DNA of 64,000 nt. It comes from a virus. The notes beneath the pieces are model-generated. The model had not been told where the DNA came from, did no database searches, and saw only the letters and a list, made by a program, of their open reading frames with translations. The stretch lies in the IMG/VR virus record IMGVR_UViG_3300046698_000540, positions 1-64,000 of that record. One strand, given 5' to 3'. The stretch's first letter is position 1; every line of letters begins with the position of its first letter. Of the stretch, positions 3,569 to 54,469 are shown in pieces. The position numbers and the translations under genes are program-made.

Positions 3569-4360
3569 TCAGCGTACCGCAAGATCCTTATGCATTTGCG
3601 CCATGAACCGAACTTCCTCAAAACCCAGCGCAAGAACTTTTTTCCAATTCTCGCACTCCACATATTTCCGCATGACCTCTTTGAAGGCTGGCTTGCCACT
3701 GAACCACTCTGCTTGGAAATACAAAGGGATCGTTCTTCGCCGGTCCTCTGGGACATTGCGCTCGCACCAGGAGAGAATCGCTTCGAACATCTGCAAGGAT
3801 TCCACGACGAACTTGAGATGCATAGGCACCGAGGATGAAATCCACTTCTTGACCTCCTTCTCTCCATGCGCGGAAATTTTCGCCGCGGCAGTGCCCTCGG
3901 TGAAGTTGAGAAGCTGGCCCGTGGTCTCAAACTTTGGAGACATGGACAGGTACACTCGGTACTTCATCCCGGCCAGGTCGGGGACGAAGATGGCGCCGTT
4001 CGTCTCGATCGTGATGAGCCTTTCTTGATTGTTCCTGTGGGCGGCGTACTCGAAATCTTGCTGAATTCTGTCCTGCTCCCGGACCAAACCAATAATCTCC
4101 ATCAGGTGGTTCGCCTGCAAGGTGGGCTCGCCGCCAGTGAAGCACGCCGGCACCTGGATGGCGTGGCGCGTAATCAGCTCCGCGATCTCTTCGTTGGCCA
4201 TTTCGTAAAAGCGGAATTGAGGCCTGTCGGAAAGCGTGGAAGGGGAATCGCACCATGCGCAGCTCAAATTACAGGTTGCGAAACGAACGAACTGCATGGG
4301 CACTCCGGCGTACTTCCCCTCTCCTTGAAGCGAAAAAAAAGTTTCATTCAATGTCGCCAC
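3569..4360 (-). CDS. queE: 7-carboxy-7-deazaguanine synthase QueE
   Basis: A radical-SAM enzyme of 263 residues that converts 6-carboxytetrahydropterin to 7-carboxy-7-deazaguanine, the third step toward preQ0. The FeS-binding cysteines C30, C34 and C37 (CNLSCAWCD) follow the typical N-terminus [18 protein letters not shown] and ETNGA are the expected SAM/substrate motifs. The length is slightly above the usual 200-245, with an insertion around residues 95-110 ([19 protein letters not shown]). The GTG start has GGAGG seven bases upstream. The gene overlaps its upstream neighbour by 17 bases. QueD is encoded 1.5 kb upstream, so the two steps are probably coordinated. Confidence 0.93.
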
Positions 4361-5864: not shown

Positions 5865-6326
5865 TCACCTCAAACTATACTGCACCGAAGCCCAGGTGCT
5901 CCCGGTCTCGCTCACAGCCACTTCCAGCACACGCGCCGCGGGATTTTCTTCCGCCACCTTCGCCTGGAGGGTGTCTAGGAGGATTGATCCGAATACCTCG
6001 GCCGTCGTCTGATCGAAGAAATCGTTCAGGTTGTGGTGGTCGTACTGGTCCAGAATCGCCTTGACGTGCGTGAAGTCGATCACCATGCCCTCTTTGTTCA
6101 ACTTATCGGCCACAATCACCACGCGGATCCGGTAAGTGTGGCCATGCGGCTCGTTGCACTTCGACTTGTAGGGCAGCTTCAACTGATGCGCGCAGTCGAT
6201 CGACTCGTTGATGGTCACTGCGTACTTGTAGGGGCTCACTCCTGCCATAGGCAGCCCAGCGTTCAAAATGCTAAGCGGAGGAACACCTTGCCCCGGTTTT
6301 TTTGAGTCAAACGGAATTCCTGCCAT
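5865..6326 (-). CDS. queD: 6-carboxytetrahydropterin synthase QueD
   Basis: A 153-residue T-fold enzyme that makes 6-carboxy-5,6,7,8-tetrahydropterin from dihydroneopterin triphosphate, the substrate of QueE. The zinc-binding histidines H47, H61 and H63, catalytic C57 in CNEPHGHTY, the DHHNLND segment (about 96-102), TTAE (107-110) and a C-terminal glutamate (VSETGSTW) are all present. About 25 extra residues precede the conserved domain; an internal ATG at codon 27 is a possible alternative, but the first ATG has a perfect GGAGGTG site. It probably works with QueE at 3569-4360. Confidence 0.93.
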   Translation of the reverse strand: MAGIPFDSKKPGQGVPPLSILNAGLPMAGVSPYKYAVTINESIDCAHQLKLPYKSKCNEPHGHTYRIRVVIVADKLNKEGMVIDFTHVKAILDQYDHHNLNDFFDQTTAEVFGSILLDTLQAKVAEENPAARVLEVAVSETGSTWASVQYSLR

Positions 6327-8045: not shown

Positions 8046-8939
8046 TCACTTGATCTGTACCAGCTTGGAATATGTGCTGGTAGCGAAGCATGTATTCACC
8101 CAAGGACATTCTTGTGCCCGTTGCACCACTCCCGAGCGGCAAATTCTTTCGGGCAGCCGCTTATCCTTGTGAGCCCGATCAATGTCCACCAGAATCTTTC
8201 GGAACTGGGCCCACTGATCGAGATCCAACCTCAGCACGATCTCCTTCACCAGTTGGGTGTTCTTGCACTCATAAATCAGGTGGCAGGCCTTCAGGTCCAA
8301 TCCCGCCATGTAGACGGTCATCTGGACAGCGTGCTCCGACTGCGGCTCGCTGTGAAGCATCCTCCAGTACTCATCCTTGATGGACTTGATGTCCACCAGA
8401 ACAGGCTCTCCAGCAAACCTCCACTGGCCGCCATTCGACAAAACTTTGAATACGAAACCACCGCTACTCGTGAACTTCGGTGTGCCTTCTTCGTAGTACT
8501 CCAGCTCAACCTTGTTGACCGCCTCAGGGTACACAATGGCATCGGCGTGCCCCAAGACGCCCAACTCTGGATCGTGAACTGGAACCTCCCACCCAACACC
8601 CTTCAACGGATTACAAATTCCCGCTTGAATGAGATAGGCTTGCCAACGGCGATGAACCCATTGGCCGTTGTCCACGATGCGAAAAAATCGCGGGCTGAAA
8701 TCTTCGTGAAGCAACTCTTTCGGCCACTTCTCTATGGGAGCGAACCGCGTGAAAAAAAGCTCCCGCGGACAGATATGCTCCCACCCCTTCTTCCAAGGAA
8801 CCATGGAGGAGGGGTGCAGCCACCCCTCCACTTCCGTGGTCGCCTCGTTGCGCTGAAGCAGCATCCGGTCAACACGAGAAAGAATCGCGTCTCCGGAGGA
8901 TGCCTTGAGCGAATCTATAATCGTTTTTAAGCCTGGCAT
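8046..8939 (-). CDS. Cas4/RecB-type PD-(D/E)XK exonuclease with FeS cysteines
   Basis: A 297-residue nuclease. The catalytic core is GHADAIV (about 128-134) followed by VLVDIKSIK, the D-x(n)-D-x-K signature of the RecB nuclease family, and a QMTVYMAGL helix matches the QxxxY motif IV. A cysteine near the N-terminus (ICPRELFF) plus three at the C-terminus (RICRSG, QECPWVNTCF) is the layout of the Cas4/AddB iron-sulfur cluster. It probably resects DNA ends for recombination with RecA. The ATG used lies directly after hairpin element A (8946-9047), which separates it from the nearest good ribosome-binding site. Confidence 0.85.
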   Translation of the reverse strand: MPGLKTIIDSLKASSGDAILSRVDRMLLQRNEATTEVEGWLHPSSMVPWKKGWEHICPRELFFTRFAPIEKWPKELLHEDFSPRFFRIVDNGQWVHRRWQAYLIQAGICNPLKGVGWEVPVHDPELGVLGHADAIVYPEAVNKVELEYYEEGTPKFTSSGGFVFKVLSNGGQWRFAGEPVLVDIKSIKDEYWRMLHSEPQSEHAVQMTVYMAGLDLKACHLIYECKNTQLVKEIVLRLDLDQWAQFRKILVDIDRAHKDKRLPERICRSGVVQRAQECPWVNTCFATSTYSKLVQIK

Positions 8940-8945
8940 TTTGGA

Positions 8946-9047
8946 AAGAGCGGCCAAGACAGAGCAGCGGAAATTAGCGATCCACTTCCCAGATCAAACG
9001 TACAGATCTTGCTTCAATGGGGCCGCTGCTCTGTCTTGACCGCTCTT
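8946..9047 (-). ncRNA. Structured element A: covarying stem with CRISPR-like core
   Basis: Two 25-base arms (8946-8970 and 9023-9047) pair along their whole length with one difference, which is a G-U pair in the minus-strand RNA but an A-C clash on the plus strand. Inside are GCGGAAATT at 8967-8975 and CTTGCTTCAATGGGGCCGC at 9008-9026 (plus-strand reading), both identical in element B at 31850-31957, separated by 32 unlike bases. It fills the gap between two genes. AGGAG precedes the 5' arm and the nuclease ATG follows the 3' arm, so folding brings the two together. It may be a leader RNA regulating translation. Confidence 0.75.
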
Positions 9048-9053
9048 ACTCCT

Positions 9054-9812
9054 CTAACGCTTCCTACCGGGCGCCTTTTTCTCCCCGCCCTTTGGCTTGC
9101 GGGGCACCAGCCTGGCCTTGCCCGATTTCGTAACCTTCACATCCGCTTCGCCGGTGTGAAGGACATGAACCACCTCCGCGCCGGTGGCTTCCTCCGCCTT
9201 GGGCTGTGCCCCGCGGCCGCGCTTCTTCGGAGGCGCCGGCAACCCCTTCTTGCGCGCCTTTTGTTCCTTGAACTCGCCGCAGGCGCACTCGGGATCAACA
9301 CATTCTTCCGTGTTCACTTCCGTCGTGCCTTCCTTGAACAGGTGAAGGTGCCCGCATGTGCATGCCAAACCCTGCTCCAAAGGCAACTCCTGCTGCAATT
9401 CCTCGATCATGAGACGGCCGCTCCAACCACGCACATCGTCCAGGAATGCGATGATCGCCTTGGCCAGGATGTCTGTCGTGATCTTGAAGGACACTGTGGC
9501 ACCGGAGCCGTCCAACTTCGTCGCCGCGAAACTTTTCACCGAACAGGACGGAATATGCAACAGCGCGTCTTTTTCCGCCGGTGTACCTGGTAGAGGATAA
9601 AACGAAACCCGCGCCGCCTCGATGTCGTGGTCAAAACCATGCGACGTAAATTCCGTCAGGGCGCCGTTTTTCCTGTACAGCTCCCCATTGCCCAATTCTT
9701 TGGCCAGCACTTCGCTCAATGCGCCCTCGATGGGAATCGAGCTGACCAGTTTCTCTCCTGTGCTCCTGAAACCCGTCGTACCTGTGACGGATGCTTCAAA
9801 AATTTCTAACAT
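9054..9812 (-). CDS. Hypothetical protein with C-terminal Cys/basic region
   Basis: A 252-residue protein. The N-terminal 150 residues look like a globular domain (GEKLVSSIPIEGALSEVL, GFDHDIEAARVSFYPLP, WSGRLMIEELQQELPLEQ). A cysteine-rich segment (CTCGHLH, ECVDPECACGEF) could bind zinc, and the last 60 residues are Lys/Pro/Gly-rich, as in DNA-binding tails. No family is recognised. It precedes element A and the exonuclease, suggesting a role in recombination or replication. Confidence 0.6.
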   Translation of the reverse strand: MLEIFEASVTGTTGFRSTGEKLVSSIPIEGALSEVLAKELGNGELYRKNGALTEFTSHGFDHDIEAARVSFYPLPGTPAEKDALLHIPSCSVKSFAATKLDGSGATVSFKITTDILAKAIIAFLDDVRGWSGRLMIEELQQELPLEQGLACTCGHLHLFKEGTTEVNTEECVDPECACGEFKEQKARKKGLPAPPKKRGRGAQPKAEEATGAEVVHVLHTGEADVKVTKSGKARLVPRKPKGGEKKAPGRKR

Positions 9813-17088: not shown

Positions 17089-17197
17089 GTTCACCTTTCC
17101 TGCCCCCACCTTCCCGGCGCCGTTCGGAGTAAGCTGCCTCGAAGGGACGCGCGCTTCTAGCCCTACCGTTTGGCCCGGCACCAAGAAAATGGGGGGT
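17089..17197 (-). promoter_or_regulatory. Folded 5' leader downstream of promoter P1
   Basis: The predicted transcript begins near the C-run at 17185-17195. In the minus-strand RNA this 11-base segment (CCCCCAUUUUC) can pair with GAAGGUGGGGG at 17103-17113 with two G-U pairs, bringing the transcript start next to the ribosome-binding site at about 17091-17097. The same arrangement occurs behind promoter P2. It may protect the 5' end or control ribosome access. Confidence 0.55.
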
Positions 17198-17203
17198 AAT
17201 TTA

Positions 17204-17232
17204 ATGATAGTATATTCTGAAGCCTTTGTAAA
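17204..17232 (-). promoter_or_regulatory. Promoter P1 (sigma70-like)
   Basis: On the minus strand: TTTACA (17227-17232), a 17-base spacer and TATCAT (17204-17209). The -35 box stands in the shared context GACCTTTACAAA, identical in P2. It lies in the gap between the genes at 17242-17598 and 16453-17088 and points at the latter. Confidence 0.85.
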
Positions 17233-17241
17233 GGTCGCCTA

Positions 17242-22768: not shown

Positions 22769-22858
22769 ATGTTCACCAGTCCCCACCCAACCAAACCCCG
22801 TCCTACGATTCGGGGTCCCGGCAGGCTGGCGTAGGAACCAGTTGATGTGGGTGGGGAT
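22769..22858 (-). promoter_or_regulatory. Folded 5' leader downstream of promoter P2
   Basis: The predicted RNA starts near 22858 with AUCAUCCCCACCC. The segment 22848-22856 pairs perfectly over 9 bp with 22781-22789 (CCCCACCCA with UGGGUGGGG), ending about 8 bases before the ribosome-binding site, and an inner stem pairs 22830-22835 with 22802-22807. The layout matches the leader behind P1 although the stem sequences differ. Confidence 0.6.
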
Positions 22859-22864
22859 GATTTA

Positions 22865-22893
22865 AGTATATAGTATTCTGAACTTTTTGTAAA
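22865..22893 (-). promoter_or_regulatory. Promoter P2 (sigma70-like)
   Basis: On the minus strand: TTTACA (22888-22893), 17-base spacer, TATACT (22865-22870), a near-perfect sigma70 promoter in the context GACCTTTACAAA. It points at the polymerase module and sits immediately after the stop codon of the primase gene. Confidence 0.88.
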
Positions 22894-22899
22894 GGTCGC

Positions 22900-24057
22900 C
22901 TACTCCTGCGTGTCCTTCAGAATCACTTGCGCGCCTTGGATCGCTTCTCTGATCGCTTCTGCCTCCATGCCCCCCGGATCTGCACCAGCTTGATTATCAC
23001 CGTAGCGCACACGATGAAACCTAACCCTACATCCGACCAGTTCATAAAGCTCTCTGTCTCCTTTTCTGCCGGCCTGGTCGTTATCCAGGAACGAAACGAT
23101 ACGACGATCCGCCGTCAGTCGAACCAACAGGTTAGCCTGCTCCTGCGAGGGCGAACTTCCGAGTAAGGCCAGCGGAAGAACCGGGAAGCCCATGCTGTCA
23201 CGAAAATCGCGTGTAGCCTGCCACACCATGAGGGCATCCACCACTCCTTCCACCACCACTGCCACGAACCCTGACGGCTGCTTCAAGTATGCCGCTTCCA
23301 ATTTTCCTGACTGAAACCAATGTGCTCCAAAAAGATGCTTCGCCTTCCGGAATCCTTCTTGCGCGTGCTCCCGGTCCACCTGAATTCCTCCACAGCTTTC
23401 ACAGCGGTACGTGTTGTTGTGGCTCTCCAAAGGATACCCGCATGAATGAACTCTGGACCAGAGATTCTTGTACTTTACATCGTGCTCGTGCATCAACCGG
23501 GTGGCTCCGCCCACGGTACCCACCAGTTTTCCCTCAGCATCCCTGACCGGGAATATAATCCTCTGCGTCTTCCTGTCGAAACCCAGACCCCAGGCCCTGC
23601 AGGTTTCCAACGTCACCCCGCGGTCTAAAAGCCTCTGCGCCACCCGGCCCTGGTAGGGGGCCAGCCAGGATTCCGGAAAAATCCGGTAAGGCTCCCGAGC
23701 GGCGCCGGCAAAATGGCTCTCAAAGGGGGGAACACTGGCGGCGATCGCCTCTGGATCCTGGTACAGCAGCGCGGCCAGGCGCTCCAGGGCCTTGGAGCAA
23801 TCGTAGCCTAGTTCTCGTTCCAGGAGGCGAAAGAAGTGCTCCACAGGGCCTTTCCGGCCGCAAGCCAGGCAATTCCAGGTGCCTCCGTTCTCCTCGTCGT
23901 CCGGTTTGACCCCGAGCGAGGGCGTCCGGTCCACCTGGTGGGAATGGCCGGACACCGCCGCGAAAGGACATCGCATGGTGACGTTACTCGACCGGATCAT
24001 ACCCGCCATGGGGGGATTTACCAGCGCCAGCAGCTCCACCACATCATCCACGTTCAC
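22900..24057 (-). CDS. DnaG-like primase with zinc finger and TOPRIM
   Basis: A 385-residue primase. An N-terminal zinc site (RCPFAAVSGHSH, WNCLACGRKG) recognises template. A TOPRIM core follows: VVVEGVVDALMVW provides the Glu, and VSFLDNDQAGRKG the D-x-D. A second Cys set (CGYPLESH, YRCESCGG) lies between them and is an insertion relative to DnaG. There is no fused helicase; the DnaB-like protein is encoded separately at 27069. It would lay RNA primers for the family A polymerase. Confidence 0.88.
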   Translation of the reverse strand: MNVDDVVELLALVNPPMAGMIRSSNVTMRCPFAAVSGHSHQVDRTPSLGVKPDDEENGGTWNCLACGRKGPVEHFFRLLERELGYDCSKALERLAALLYQDPEAIAASVPPFESHFAGAAREPYRIFPESWLAPYQGRVAQRLLDRGVTLETCRAWGLGFDRKTQRIIFPVRDAEGKLVGTVGGATRLMHEHDVKYKNLWSRVHSCGYPLESHNNTYRCESCGGIQVDREHAQEGFRKAKHLFGAHWFQSGKLEAAYLKQPSGFVAVVVEGVVDALMVWQATRDFRDSMGFPVLPLALLGSSPSQEQANLLVRLTADRRIVSFLDNDQAGRKGDRELYELVGCRVRFHRVRYGDNQAGADPGGMEAEAIREAIQGAQVILKDTQE

Positions 24058-30717: not shown

Positions 30718-31821
30718 TCAGGCGGCTACAAGTTCCTGCCAGTCGCGCTGGCTCAATTCAATCACCTGGCCGCCGGCGCGTTCCAAATCCACCGAGCGCT
30801 CGTAGGAAACCGACTCGTCATTCGCCACGGCCGTTATCGCTTGCGCAAGGCCCCACTGGGATAAATCTCCCCCCTGAATCAGATTCTTCAGGATCGAGTC
30901 CCCTTCCGTGTCGGTAAACCCGTACTTGGACTGCACCACTTCCTGAACTTCCTGAAGGGATGCGCCACCTTTGGGGATCTGGTTATCCGCCGCGGCGCGC
31001 ATTTTCTCGATGAACTTCTGGAAGTTGGCTTCATCGAAGCTGCCGCGCACCACGTCCACCACCTTGCGCCAGAATGCATTGTCGTCGGCCCTCCGCGTGG
31101 CGTCCGTGAAGAACTCCTCGACGCCTTCCATGTCCCCAACGCCGCGGCCTACATGGCGCCGCTTCAGAGAAGAGTCTGGACGGATCATCCCGTTGTAGCA
31201 AACCAAGCGGTAGAACGCCGGCTCGATCGAGATCTGCGAGTGGCCCACTTCCGAATTGGTGATGACCACGCCGGCCTGCACCACGTCGTTCAGCTTCACG
31301 GCCGCGGTGAGCCTGCTGGTGAACGCCTTGATGAAAAACCGCGTCTCGGTGATCTGAATGGACTCGATCCTCATGCCCTGCGCGTGCTCTCCCATCAGCG
31401 TAGGCACCACCGCTTTGAACAGGTCGTAGTTGTCGAGCGGCCGATACTTGTCGCCAAGGTACGCCCGAGCCTGGCCATCTAGAGTCCTGACCAAGCGCGT
31501 TTCATCCTGGTGTTGGAACCAGTAGTTCACGTTCAGAGGGACCAGCTCCGGACCGTTGTCCATCATGCGCTCGTAGTACTCCCATCGAATTTTGGTGCGC
31601 TCCGCGACCTGTTGGTGCGCCAATCTGCGCATAGGAAAAACACCCTGATCGCCTATGCTGAGAGCATATTTCATTTGGAACCCTTCCGGCGACTGCACCA
31701 CCTGGTAAGGATCCAAAACCTGGACTTGGAGTTTCGAGGACGGAGCCTTGAAATCCCGCTTAGTGTCCGCTTGCCTTTGAACTTCTTTAGCGAAATCGCC
31801 TAATGCCATTCCTTGTTTCAT
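30718..31821 (-). CDS. DUF932 phage/plasmid-like protein
   Basis: A 367-residue protein of the DUF932 family (phage/plasmid-like protein, TIGR03299-type), recognised by the run ARAYLGDKYRPLDNYDLF, RIESIQITETRFFIKAF, QAGVVITNSEVGHSQISIEP and RLVCYNGMIRPDSS. Members are widespread on phages and plasmids; their biochemical role is unknown, though they occur near replication and recombination genes. The ATG has GGAGAAGAAAC before it, and structured element B lies 29 bases upstream of the start. Confidence 0.9.
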   Translation of the reverse strand: MKQGMALGDFAKEVQRQADTKRDFKAPSSKLQVQVLDPYQVVQSPEGFQMKYALSIGDQGVFPMRRLAHQQVAERTKIRWEYYERMMDNGPELVPLNVNYWFQHQDETRLVRTLDGQARAYLGDKYRPLDNYDLFKAVVPTLMGEHAQGMRIESIQITETRFFIKAFTSRLTAAVKLNDVVQAGVVITNSEVGHSQISIEPAFYRLVCYNGMIRPDSSLKRRHVGRGVGDMEGVEEFFTDATRRADDNAFWRKVVDVVRGSFDEANFQKFIEKMRAAADNQIPKGGASLQEVQEVVQSKYGFTDTEGDSILKNLIQGGDLSQWGLAQAITAVANDESVSYERSVDLERAGGQVIELSQRDWQELVAA

Positions 31822-31849
31822 GTTTCTTCTCCATGTTCTGTTCTCTTGA

Positions 31850-31957
31850 TTGGGCTTCTTCGACTCATTGAAGCGGAAATTTTGCTTGCTCGCCTATCAA
31901 AACCGGAGCCACAGCCTTGCTTCAATGGGGCCGCTCCAATGAGCCGAAGAAGCCCAA
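31850..31957 (-). ncRNA. Structured element B: covarying stem with CRISPR-like core
   Basis: Two 27-base arms (31850-31876 and 31931-31957) are complementary with two differences, both G-U pairs if the RNA is read from the minus strand. The outer stem sequence is unrelated to that of element A, but the inner boxes are identical: GCGGAAATT (31873-31881) and CTTGCTTCAATGGGGCCGC (31916-31934), here 34 bases apart. It lies in the 285-base leader between the helicase loader and the DUF932 gene. Conserved core plus covarying stem indicates a functional RNA. The rest of the gap contains a smaller GGGCAC/GTGCCC hairpin and no supported gene. Confidence 0.75.
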
Positions 31958-32106
31958 CCATTTTCCTGACCGGAACCGCCAGCCTACCGGGGGCTACCAA
32001 GCCCGAATTTTCCCACAAACGGGGCACCAGGAGTGCCCATCATCGTGAGGCCCTGCCGAAACACGGGGATGCGTAAAAGCGCACACCCACCAAAACCAAA
32101 ACTTTT

Positions 32107-34039: not shown

Positions 34040-34119
34040 GGAGCCGTCTCTCCAAGCCGTCCGACCGCGTATAAATAGTAAAGAGAAATCAGGAGAGAAG
34101 ATAAAAAGGAAGTGGTTTT

Positions 34120-34148
34120 ATTATATAGGATCGAAAAATCTTTGTAAA
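34120..34148 (-). promoter_or_regulatory. Promoter P4 (consensus sigma70 with flanking inverted repeat)
   Basis: Minus strand: TTTACA (34143-34148), 17-base spacer, perfect TATAAT (34120-34125). An inverted repeat, GATCGAAAAA at 34129-34138 and TTTTCCGATC at 34157-34166 (9 of 10 paired), brackets the -35 box and could be an operator. The gap 33817-34171 between the early and late modules holds P3, P4 and P5 and no supported gene. Confidence 0.85.
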
Positions 34149-34171
34149 GGGCGCGCTTTTCCGATCAAGGG

Positions 34172-51737: not shown

Positions 51738-52100
51738 CTACATCGAACGACCGTAGCCGGCATGGCCGCCAGGAAGCGCCGCGTGACCAAGGATGTTGAA
51801 ATCCTGGCCGGACTTTTTTCCTTTTCCTTTTCCATGGTGGGGGGTCCTCCATCCTCTGAATCCACCACCTTTGGCACCTGAATTGTCTCTTTCCAATTCA
51901 CTGATGTGCCCCAAGTGATGCAAGGATCCCCCGTATTTGCTTTTCTGGTACACATTACCTGTGGGCTTATGCAAAAACTGGCCGCCGGGATGACTTTTAC
52001 CCTGCTGCTCAAACTCATGAGCGGGTAACATCTCGCCGCCTTTTCCGTGACCGCTACCTTGGACGTGGTACTCGTTTAATTTACCTCTTGGAAATCCCAT
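51738..52100 (-). CDS. Tagged small His/Gly-rich protein (paralogue of 53167)
   Basis: A 120-residue protein starting MGFPRGKLNEYHVQG behind GGAGGTTTGAA. It is His/Gly/Lys-rich and low in hydrophobic residues. The C-terminal 25 residues are the shared tag (begins KSGQDFN, ends LPGGHAGYGRSM). The first 14 residues and 68 bases of flanking DNA recur at the start of the gene at 53167-53553. No catalytic motif is seen; a virion-packaged or assembly protein is plausible. Confidence 0.7.
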   Translation of the reverse strand: MGFPRGKLNEYHVQGSGHGKGGEMLPAHEFEQQGKSHPGGQFLHKPTGNVYQKSKYGGSLHHLGHISELERDNSGAKGGGFRGWRTPHHGKGKGKKSGQDFNILGHAALPGGHAGYGRSM

Positions 52101-52129
52101 TTCAAACCTCCAAAACCATTGTGTCGGCC
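52061..52129 (-). repeat. Duplicated segment, copy 1
   Basis: About 69 bases nearly identical to 53502-53582, covering the ribosome-binding site and first codons of the tagged gene plus noncoding bases upstream. Copy 2 differs mainly by two 6-base in-frame tandem insertions (AAGTAC and TTTACC). Confidence 0.85.
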
Positions 52130-52131
52130 CG

Positions 52132-52644
52132 CTAGGCCGGTCCTACTACCGTCTTCTCCGAAGCCAGAGCCTCGGCAATTCTCTTCTTCAACCTGGTCAA
52201 CTCCGTCTGCACTTCCCGGTCCATTGCCACCTTGTCCACGGACTTTTTGGCGCCAGGGTGCCTCACTCGCGGCCCAAAAAACTGATCTCCGCTGGCGAAC
52301 TGGAAAGCCAGCACCTTGGCATGAACCGCCTGGATAGCGTGCCTTTTGGTCCCACTCTGCAACAGCGGCCAAATTTTCGCCGCTCGTGGGTCAATGTTCC
52401 GAATCAGGATCTTCAGCTTCGCGTGCGGCTCGTCCGTCTCCACTTCGCCTTTCCACCCGGCGCGCAATTTTCCCGGCGAAGGCTGGTTGGGATCCTTCGA
52501 CACCGGCGTATATTTCCGGTAGAGCTTTTCCAGGATGGCTGAGGACTCGACGGCGACACCCTTCAGCCGGGTGAACTTCAGCATGTTCTCCATCCGTTTC
52601 AGAACGGCGTCCATGCTGACCGAGATTTTGATGCCGTCGATCAT
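52132..52644 (-). CDS. HK97-gp10-like tail completion protein
   Basis: A 170-residue protein starting MIDGIKISVSMDAVLKRM. AVESSAILEKLYRKYTPVSK followed by KLRAGWKGEV and a His/Arg region (GTKRHAIQAVHAKVLAFQFA) matches the gp10/minor tail completion family, which joins head connector and tail. The stretch SGTKRHAI then GP-R-HPGAKK is its usual end. The position between connector and tail tube genes fits. Confidence 0.75.
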   Translation of the reverse strand: MIDGIKISVSMDAVLKRMENMLKFTRLKGVAVESSAILEKLYRKYTPVSKDPNQPSPGKLRAGWKGEVETDEPHAKLKILIRNIDPRAAKIWPLLQSGTKRHAIQAVHAKVLAFQFASGDQFFGPRVRHPGAKKSVDKVAMDREVQTELTRLKKRIAEALASEKTVVGPA

Positions 52645-53170: not shown

Positions 53171-53553
53171 CGGCCGTAACCCGCATGCCCACCGGGAAGC
53201 CCCGCATGACCCAGGATGTTGAAGTCCTGACCGGATTTGCGACCAAATGGATTGTGCCCCGGCTTGCTGTGCGATTTGCCGGGATGTTTTTTGCCAAACT
53301 TGCCATGCTTGCCACCGGCGTTATGGTCGCCTGTTACCGGATCGAAGGTGCCTCCGTTCATAACATCATTGGTATAGTAGTGACCTAACTCACCGTGAAT
53401 GGTGTACCTCTCACCCGAGGAGTTTGGCCCAAAGTACTTTTCTGCTTCCTTATGCGAACCGAATGAGGGAGTCCCCATAGGCCCGTGCTTACTACCGCGT
53501 GGGACGTGGTACAAGTACTCGTTTAATTTACCTTTACCTCTTGGAAATCCCAT
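53167..53553 (-). CDS. Tagged small His/Gly-rich protein (paralogue of 51738)
   Basis: A 128-residue protein starting MGFPRGKGKLNEYLYHV. It is rich in His, Gly and Lys (GGKHGKFGKKHPGKSHSKPG) with a short folded part (SHKEAEKYFGPNSSGERYTI). It ends with the shared tag (KSGQDFN...LPGGHAGYGR). The N-terminus and flanking DNA duplicate the gene at 51738. Function unknown. Confidence 0.7.
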   Translation of the reverse strand: MGFPRGKGKLNEYLYHVPRGSKHGPMGTPSFGSHKEAEKYFGPNSSGERYTIHGELGHYYTNDVMNGGTFDPVTGDHNAGGKHGKFGKKHPGKSHSKPGHNPFGRKSGQDFNILGHAGLPGGHAGYGR

Positions 53554-53582
53554 TTCAAACCTCCAAAACCATTGTGTCGGCC
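53502..53582 (-). repeat. Duplicated segment, copy 2
   Basis: Partner of 52061-52129. In this copy the upstream part also encodes the last ten residues of the connector-like gene (LADTMVLEV and stop), so this is probably the source copy and 52061-52129 the derived one. Confidence 0.8.
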
Positions 53583-54469
53583 AGCAAGTCGATGAAGTTC
53601 TCTACCTTCAGAGAAACTGGATCGCTCATCGCGGCCAGCATGTTCCAGTTGACCGCCGCCAGGATGAAGTACCACGTCCCGGTCGGCAGCAGAGTGTACT
53701 CCATCCACAATTCGTTCTTGGCCATCTGCGCTTCCCCTGTCGAAATCCAGGGGCCTGAAACGCGCTCGAAGGCCAGCGTGTCGGAGTAATAGTCGTAGAT
53801 CGTGCGGATCACCTGCCAGGTTTCAAGAGGCGCCCGTGGATTCTGCGAAGCGTAGAAGCGAAGGTATGCGAGATCGCCTGTGTCCATCCGGGCCCAGTCC
53901 AAAACCAGGCGCCCGAAAGGAACGGCGATGTTCTGGAATCCTCCTGTGTCGGCCGGCGGATTCACCCTGGCGTTCGGATAGTAGAGGTAGGAAACCGACA
54001 GGAGTTTCGGCTTCGGAGGCGGCGGCGCAATCTGCACGGGAACCTTGGCGTGAATAAGCCTACTGTCCCGGACCAGGTTGCCAATCACGATGTCCCCGCT
54101 CACATTGTCTTGTGCGGCGATGCGATCGCGCTGGTAGTCGTACTCGTCCCGCAGCTCGTTAGCGGCGGTAATGAGCATCTGTGAATTGCCCGTCTTGTCT
54201 GCGGAAAAATTCGCGCCTACGGAAACTCGGGTATCTAGAGCATATTCCAGCGCCTTATCCCGGGCGATGCGGACCTTCGCCAGCAGCAGGATGAGCTGTT
54301 CTTCCTCCACGGGAACTGTTGCCCACGTGTAAGACTTGTTGTGCTGGCGAAGGGCCTCGAACAGGGCCTCGTTCAGGAGAGCATTGTCGAAACGCCGCTC
54401 TCCCGTGAGCCAGGAGATGTCTCCAAGCTGGCCCCGCATCGTTTCCCGTAATGCTGAAATAGTGGCCAC
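53555..54469 (-). CDS. Probable head-tail connector/structural protein
   Basis: A 304-residue protein starting MATISALRETMRGQLGD. The N-terminal helices (SWLTGERRFDNALLNEALFE, KVRIARDKALEYALDTRV) resemble head completion/adaptor proteins that recognise gp6-like helical bundles, followed by a beta-sandwich domain (PKLLSVSYLYYPNARVNPPA, GPWISTGEAQMAKNELWMEY) that may be a decoration domain. It lies between capsid-side and tail-side genes, where adaptors are expected. Confidence 0.65.
   Translation of the reverse strand: MATISALRETMRGQLGDISWLTGERRFDNALLNEALFEALRQHNKSYTWATVPVEEEQLILLLAKVRIARDKALEYALDTRVSVGANFSADKTGNSQMLITAANELRDEYDYQRDRIAAQDNVSGDIVIGNLVRDSRLIHAKVPVQIAPPPPKPKLLSVSYLYYPNARVNPPADTGGFQNIAVPFGRLVLDWARMDTGDLAYLRFYASQNPRAPLETWQVIRTIYDYYSDTLAFERVSGPWISTGEAQMAKNELWMEYTLLPTGTWYFILAAVNWNMLAAMSDPVSLKVENFIDLLADTMVLEV

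Follow-up and report, generated by a model that had tools for sequence, protein, structure and literature searches.

The window, by which we mean the whole 64,000-nt stretch of viral DNA analysed here, contains two cores of one kind (A, 8967-9026; B, 31873-31934), confirming what the first-pass annotation had observed, and these are the only cores of this kind in the full IMG/VR virus record of 100,369 bp. The features of the two elements and of the genes beside them are as follows.

8046-8939, minus strand: gene directly downstream of A (ORF list; without a Pfam match)
8946-9047, minus strand: element A, core and closing stem
8946-8970, minus strand: 3' stem arm of A, beginning CCGC (inverted repeat and fold)
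8971-8974, minus strand: ATTT of A, the opening four bases of the type I-G repeat (repeat ATTTCCGC... in viral contig L014 and in bacterial arrays)
8975-9010, minus strand: predicted spacer of A, 36 nt, open in frame 0 as KICTFDLGSGSL (spacer comparison)
9011-9018, minus strand: ATTGAAGC of A, the 8-nt crRNA 5' handle of the repeat class (identical in type I-G arrays)
9019-9022, minus strand: CCCC linker of A, 4 nt, from the helix base to the predicted Csb2 cut (sequence and published Csb2 cut position)
9023-9047, minus strand: 5' stem arm of A, 25 nt (inverted repeat of 96% on the plus strand, fully paired with G.U on the minus strand)
9054-9812, minus strand: gene upstream of A, in the same direction and ending 7 nt from A (ORF list; without a Pfam match)
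30718-31821, minus strand: DUF932 gene directly downstream of B (PF06067, E 4e-11; phrog_1362, E 6e-45)
31379-31416, minus strand: site in the virus's own genome resembling spacer B, within the DUF932 gene (24/38 nt, the top match of spacer B in the 100-kb record; peptide KAVVPTLMGEHA; TTC before the site)
31847-31960, minus strand: element B, core and closing stem
31847-31876, minus strand: 3' stem arm of B, 30 nt (inverted repeat and fold)
31877-31880, minus strand: ATTT repeat start of B (sequence)
31881-31918, minus strand: predicted spacer of B, 38 nt, reading KAVAPVLIGEQA in frame 0 (translated spacer comparison)
31919-31930, minus strand: handle ATTGAAGC of B (31919-31926) and its CCCC linker (31927-31930) (sequence)
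31931-31960, minus strand: 5' stem arm of B, 30 nt (inverted repeat and fold)

Read as RNA from the minus strand, both elements have the order stem-GG-CCCC-ATTGAAGC-insert-ATTT-CC-stem; on the plus strand, A runs from GCGGAAAT (8967-8974) through its insert (8975-9010) to GCTTCAATGGGGCCGC (9011-9026). The inserts are of spacer length, as had been claimed, but the span of 35-37 nt given for them is corrected to 36 nt in A and 38 nt in B. The 16-nt box is weak by itself (28 of 100 shuffles give at least two matches with up to three mismatches); both boxes at the spacing seen in A and B occur exactly twice in the window, against 0.00 expected from shuffles.

The stems that close the two cores are the two strongest short-range inverted repeats in the whole window, extending over 25 nt at 96% identity in A and 30 nt at 90% in B. 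Folding of the minus strand gives -61.3 (A) and -63.5 (B) kcal/mol, with z-scores of -8.0 and -7.0, compared with -54.4 and -48.8 kcal/mol for the plus strand, because mismatches on the plus strand turn into G.U pairs on the minus strand. The better RNA strand is thus the one carrying the CRISPR-like 5' handle, and it is also the strand of the neighbouring genes. The 5' stem arm of A terminates in GCGG, as does the 3' half of the hairpin in type I-G repeats, and its 3' arm ends immediately before the ATG of the next gene (8939). No Rfam family reached its gathering score in the window, the matches to miRNA hairpins being weak and far below threshold.

Type I-G repeat ends in a permuted order

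The ends of the A and B cores are identical to the ends of a CRISPR repeat of the form ATTTCC-hairpin-GGCCCCATTGAAGC. Our viral scan found a clear array of this repeat in contig L014 (ATTTCCGCGATCACATGATCGCGGCCCCATTGAAGC, six repeats, 36-37-nt spacers), and the same ends recur in more than 100 stretches among the genome matches listed, from Acidobacteriota, Planctomycetota, Nitrospira, Verrucomicrobiota and others. These bacterial arrays belong to type I-G, since genes for Cas4g/Cas1g fusions, Csb2 (Cas5/6g) and Csb1 (Cas7g) adjoin them. The first-pass annotation had taken the boxes for CRISPR-repeat ends and had suggested comparing them with known repeats; that comparison bears it out, as bacteria have repeats with precisely this form. 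The type I-G enzyme acts on a 36-nt repeat, cutting 4 nt 3' of the hairpin base (the site determined for Csb2 of T. sulfidiphilus) to leave an 8-nt handle; the PAM is TTN, and every sixth guide base is unread by type I effectors, type I-G included (PMC9638904). A and B carry exactly the order helix-CCCC-ATTGAAGC. A search for Csb2 in the virus's own genome (G000) gave no match, but its control likewise matched nowhere.

In an array the two halves of the repeat hairpin are joined by a loop and their outer ends reach different spacers. In A and B there is no loop: the half beginning ATTTCCGC... follows the spacer, the half ending ...GCGGCCCCATTGAAGC precedes it, and the two halves pair with each other over 25-30 bp. 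Around neither A nor B does a spacer lie between two direct repeats; the halves are inverted-complementary. Judged by its sequence, each of A and B is one type I-G repeat, circularly permuted around one spacer. The earlier interpretation therefore holds for the repeat ends and for the spacer-like insert but fails for the degenerate mini-array that it derived from them, as the repeat is permuted rather than degenerate, is held by a long stem, has no direct repeat and recurs in at least 19 elements.

Ordinary two-repeat mini-arrays of the same repeat do occur, in viral contigs L003 and L011. One such type I-G-like mini-array is common to L003, L006, L009, L012 and L018, with the same spacer in all five, and this spacer has no match to the neighbouring genes in the L003 and L012 copies. 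A contig labelled as the archaeon Nitrosopumilus (L043, L071) bears a long array of this repeat, which elsewhere is mostly bacterial; the contig may be wrongly binned or labelled.

With the relaxed scans the permuted elements number 19: A, B and a further 17 spread over 13 viral contigs other than that of the window. In some, CCTC takes the place of CCCC. A closing-stem score of at least 9 was reached by 19 of 28 solitary viral cores but by only 4 of 756 cross-paired control arms, so the closing stems are not due to chance. The 19-row alignment takes in the arms, the core and the spacer ends only. Within its 13-bp inner stem 95.1% of pair cells are paired, a percentage inflated because the elements were chosen by their stems; the count of independent stem sequences does not suffer from this bias. 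Eleven of the 13 inner-stem pairs change on both sides, and stem covariation is 0.932, compared with 0.182 after shuffling and at most 0.15 when the arms are slid. Stem sequences are unrelated between elements and 9-30 bp long. The first-pass annotation had seen differing outer stems as an argument against an array; differ they do, yet rather than a mere counter-argument they are the covarying feature by which the elements are defined. Two further cores, L156 and the L146 group, have bulged stems by eye, while core matches without a stem (L005/L016/L019, L138, L139, L140, L142) were taken as chance.

Spacers, neighbouring genes and relatives of the carrier

Spacer lengths across the elements range from 35 to 42 nt with a mode of 36-38, like those of 1,380 array spacers, and the spacers show no likeness to one another. 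The earlier view of the insert as spacer-like is thus upheld, and what had been named as telling against it was not found: repeats with matching ends exist, and the inserts vary among elements instead of being conserved. Several spacers are similar to part of the gene beside them in their own virus. Ten translated spacers (B, three in L157, and those of L015, L151, L007, L160, L149 and L156) have, within 3 kb, a peptide match stronger than that at every control locus, with the match in the neighbouring gene; such a peptide match is present in about half of the elements, and about a third are without any neighbour match. The genes matched include those for a major head protein, a P22-like portal, head closure and, for B, the DUF932 protein, with others besides. 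The spacer-to-own-site gap is 32-603 bp in most elements.

For B the peptide KAVAPVLIGEQA scores 40 against KAVVPTLMGEHA of its own DUF932 protein, a small margin over the control maximum of 38, and this is the best peptide match in the whole 100-kb record (40, with 28 for the next). The TTC before this site is PAM-like and is a Phe codon. Spacer A gave no convincing neighbour-gene match and no site above background across the 100-kb record; a peptide match of A above controls was not counted, as it sits in a 66-residue frame overlapping a larger ORF, and that of L155 was set aside for low complexity. L152 was barely above shuffles (22 vs 21) and without a codon pattern. There was no match to neighbouring genes for the bacterial solitary cores L039, L060, L063, L135 and L044, nor for the true repeat-pair phage loci L003, L011 and L150.

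TT precedes the own site in 7 of the 14 nucleotide-supported cases (p 9e-6). Four of the closest own sites (L151, L156, L157-6849, L160) are without a TTN flank, which fits escape by PAM loss, though this was not predicted. Mismatches gather at every third position of the spacer (93/169, vs 29/180 and 34/176 at the others), and these are wobble positions in all ten peptide-supported cases when orientation, frame and length are considered. A TTN PAM in GC-rich genes by itself favours the wobble phase, with a baseline of 52%, so that the surplus is only modest (residual p about 0.0015 for 10/10 and 0.003 for the nine TTN cases), and we have scaled down the idea of codon phasing as pure design, which this PAM effect partly explains. 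By inspection, the stop codon in the guide's frame in L015 and L010 falls on a sixth position.

Searches for the targets themselves found no exact protospacer for any guide of the family, and host array spacers compared with the window gave short, chance-level matches only (longest exact match 18 nt). A degenerate peptide pattern found no target for B; IMG/VR has no close DUF932 relatives, phage homologues reaching at most 40% identity, and the gene beside A (9054-9812) has no relatives among phages.

Comparison of self with relatives was possible for L157, whose head-protein guide of 36 nt has 30 read positions once every sixth base is omitted. Against L180, L181 and L185, whose head proteins are 84-85% identical to that of L157, this guide matches at 28/30 read positions, with TTC and no mismatch in the read seed; against the head gene of L157 itself it matches at 24/30 with a seed mismatch at position 3, which ranks 16th of 80. 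In the comparison with 76 relatives, differences from the spacer fall on 2.62 of the 6 wobble positions that are read and on 4.20 of the 6 that are unread, an asymmetry of 1.58 that is greater than that of all 62 natural alleles used as query, and at position 6 the spacer has a base found in no relative. For a second L157 spacer the seven relatives compared, each of which has TTN, show the same trend. All of this evidence that the carrier is spared stems from one virus group, through two elements of a single virus.

None of the 79 head-gene loci of the L157 relatives carries an element, nor does L164, an 86% relative of L151, have one at the matching intergenic site. The L151 and L157 elements thus adjoin their putative targets and are absent at the matching sites of relatives, as homing-type elements are. 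The L151 guide matches L164, its one close relative, no better than it matches self, and therefore L151 neither supports nor excludes the sparing of the carrier.

A proposed guide and its alternatives

We propose that each element is a single-cut guide unit for the type I-G Cascade of the host, directed against competing relatives while the carrier is spared, and would put the probability of this at roughly 0.7. In a normal array each spacer's end is joined through the repeat hairpin to the handle of the spacer that follows, whereas here the loop would be open and the spacer would close the other side. The unit would fold as a long stem with the base CCGC:GCGG, followed by CCCC and then by AUUGAAGC, presenting a normal Csb2 substrate. 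If host Csb2 cut once, at the junction of CCCC with AUUGAAGC, the product would be 5'-AUUGAAGC-spacer-AUUUCCGC..., a mature crRNA in which the other stem arm would complete the 3' 'hairpin' and the long stem would stand in for the missing loop. Host Cascade/Cas3 carrying this guide could then attack a competing related phage that bears another allele of the neighbouring gene, while the carrier would be spared by an allele that diverges at read guide positions or is without a PAM. Element and resistant allele, being linked, would stay together and might spread by recombination.

What the sequences show is the permuted order of the repeat, the covarying stems, the agreement with type I-G repeats, the spacer length, the likeness of guides to neighbouring genes, the enriched PAM and, for two elements of L157, a guide that fits some relatives better than the carrier itself. 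From these we infer transcription, cutting, loading, killing of relatives and spread. For B the proposed target would be relatives of its DUF932 gene, as suggested by the one adjacent-gene peptide match and the TTC flank. In many elements a promoter-like hexamer pair ends just before the stem (mean 6.95 vs 5.18 of 12, p 1e-8), and these may therefore be small RNAs. A and B are without promoter-like hexamers (5 of 12), which we count against the guide reading, and so they would rely on read-through or on release from gene transcripts.

The same features bear on what else the elements might be. An RNA anti-CRISPR (Racr), shielding the virus from host type I-G immunity as a decoy that occupies Csb2 or sequesters incomplete Cascade, whatever its loop sequence, would be consistent with display of the Csb2 site on a very stable stem, with the tight binding of Csb2 to its own hairpin product (KD 43 nM; PMC9638904) and with the solitary phage repeats that act in this way in types I-F and I-C (PMC10651486). 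However, a decoy has no need of a loop length that tracks array spacers, of loops that encode neighbour-gene peptides with a PAM and codon phase, or of a loop (seen once) that fits relatives best at read positions, and known Racrs keep the linear repeat order. We therefore consider the crRNA mimic against host immunity, which the first-pass annotation had suggested, to be conceivable but unlikely, and less probable than a working guide, as spacer length, neighbour coding content, the TTN PAM and codon phase point to related phages. We give least credence of all to regulatory or processing hairpins of mRNA (RNase III sites, for example) whose likeness to type I-G would be a coincidence or a fossil: A and B do lie between co-directional genes, A filling its gap completely, and neither has its own promoter-like sequence, but 16 columns that never vary fall on the functional ends of the type I-G repeat, spaced as in an array, and several elements are antisense to the neighbouring gene.

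Cascade guided by the element might instead bind and repress the carrier's own neighbouring gene, as CreA guides repress a neighbour (PMC8501985, PMC9458426), and the nearby own sites of most elements would suit this. Those sites, however, lie inside coding sequences on either strand with seed mismatches or no PAM, they can match worse than the sites in relatives, and no toxin-like RNA was noted, all of which makes such regulation very improbable. A homing-like selfish element, in which Cascade attacks an element-free relative and recombination copies in the element with its resistant flank, would be an extension compatible with the proposed guide. The element adjoins the target gene and is present or absent at matching sites, the carrier allele is self-resistant and the guide wobble-tolerant, and for archaeal viruses the nearness of viral spacers to their targets has been noted and left unexplained (PMC6858448); yet type I effectors degrade their target instead of making a clean break, and the empty sites concern the elements of two viruses, so that we regard homing as somewhat unlikely. 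The broader idea of a class of selfish phage elements, permuted single-cut crRNA units that would use host type I-G Cascade for RNA-guided homing or exclusion and would place unread positions and the free PAM base on wobble bases of conserved codons, we offer tentatively, as a possibility with the odds against it.

Relation to known elements

With type I-G (formerly I-U) arrays the elements share the ends ATTTCC and GGCCCCATTGAAGC, the 4-nt linker, the 8-nt handle, the spacer length and the TTN PAM; they differ in being a single repeat opened in its loop and permuted, in a stem (9-30 bp) that differs per element, and in that no cas genes were seen beside them. Virus-borne mini-CRISPR arrays (SPV1/SPV2 and phage mini-arrays) are also without cas and have a single spacer, and theirs is aimed at related viruses, with an altered own locus and a target close to the element, as we propose for the permuted elements; but their spacer is flanked by two direct repeats, of which A and B have none, and codon phasing is not described in the available parts of these reports (PMC6858448, PMC11656645). 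The former reports that viral mini-arrays aim at relatives, spare self and sit near their target, and leaves open how this nearness arose and what follows from it (PMC6858448).

The solitary repeat units described as Racrs are, like the elements, phage-borne single repeats mimicking that of the host; they were found by whole-repeat alignment, no guide function was claimed for them, and they are intact and linear, whereas A and B have their halves permuted around 36 or 38 nt (PMC10651486). CreA of the CreTA modules, like the guides proposed here, derives from a repeat outside an array and works on its neighbour by way of host Cascade, but its one or two degenerate repeats keep the normal order and its effect is to repress the module's own toxin (PMC8501985, PMC9458426); CreA guides partially match the neighbour's promoter, whereas the elements' own sites are mismatched and in coding sequence. 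The att-site guides of type I-F3 CRISPR transposons resemble the proposed guides as Cascade guides on conserved coding sites that tolerate wobble variation, but serve transposition and lie inside transposons with their own Cas proteins (PMC11406308). We found no earlier description of a permuted CRISPR repeat in the freely readable full-text literature, which leaves subscription papers mostly outside, and so this appears to be a new architecture among virus-borne CRISPR guides.

In T4-like phages, free-standing homing endonucleases adjoin their target, sensitive relatives are without them and the carrier allele is resistant (marker exclusion). The elements would share this position beside the target, this absence from sensitive relatives and this resistance of the carrier allele; the difference is that a protein nuclease acts in T4-like phages, where a host-supplied RNA-guided complex would act here, and homing is for the elements a tentative proposal.

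Searches for phage repeats and mini-arrays recognise them as linear repeats and would be expected to miss a permuted one with a free stem; virus-encoded guides may therefore have been overlooked as an entire class, and perhaps similar permuted guides in other CRISPR types too. The proposed guide would have a one-cut, one-repeat format with a stem of free sequence, and its linkage to the resistant allele may be why viral spacers lie near their target gene, an answer that can be tested.

Elsewhere in the window, a 50-nt repeat with an AT-rich core (TTTGTAAAGG...), 60-80% alike, is found at 17192-17241, 22853-22902 and 34108-34157, and has the appearance of a common promoter or regulatory site of the phage. 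A 65-nt stretch in four copies, 77-83% alike (at 51751, 53174, 59258 and 63175), is probably a repeated protein domain, and a 56-nt direct repeat, 96% identical, occurs at 52080-52135 and 53533-53588, 1.45 kb apart. The minus-strand ORFs at 3569-4360 and 5865-6326 resemble QueE and QueD by eye, which would suggest 7-deazaguanine modification of the DNA.
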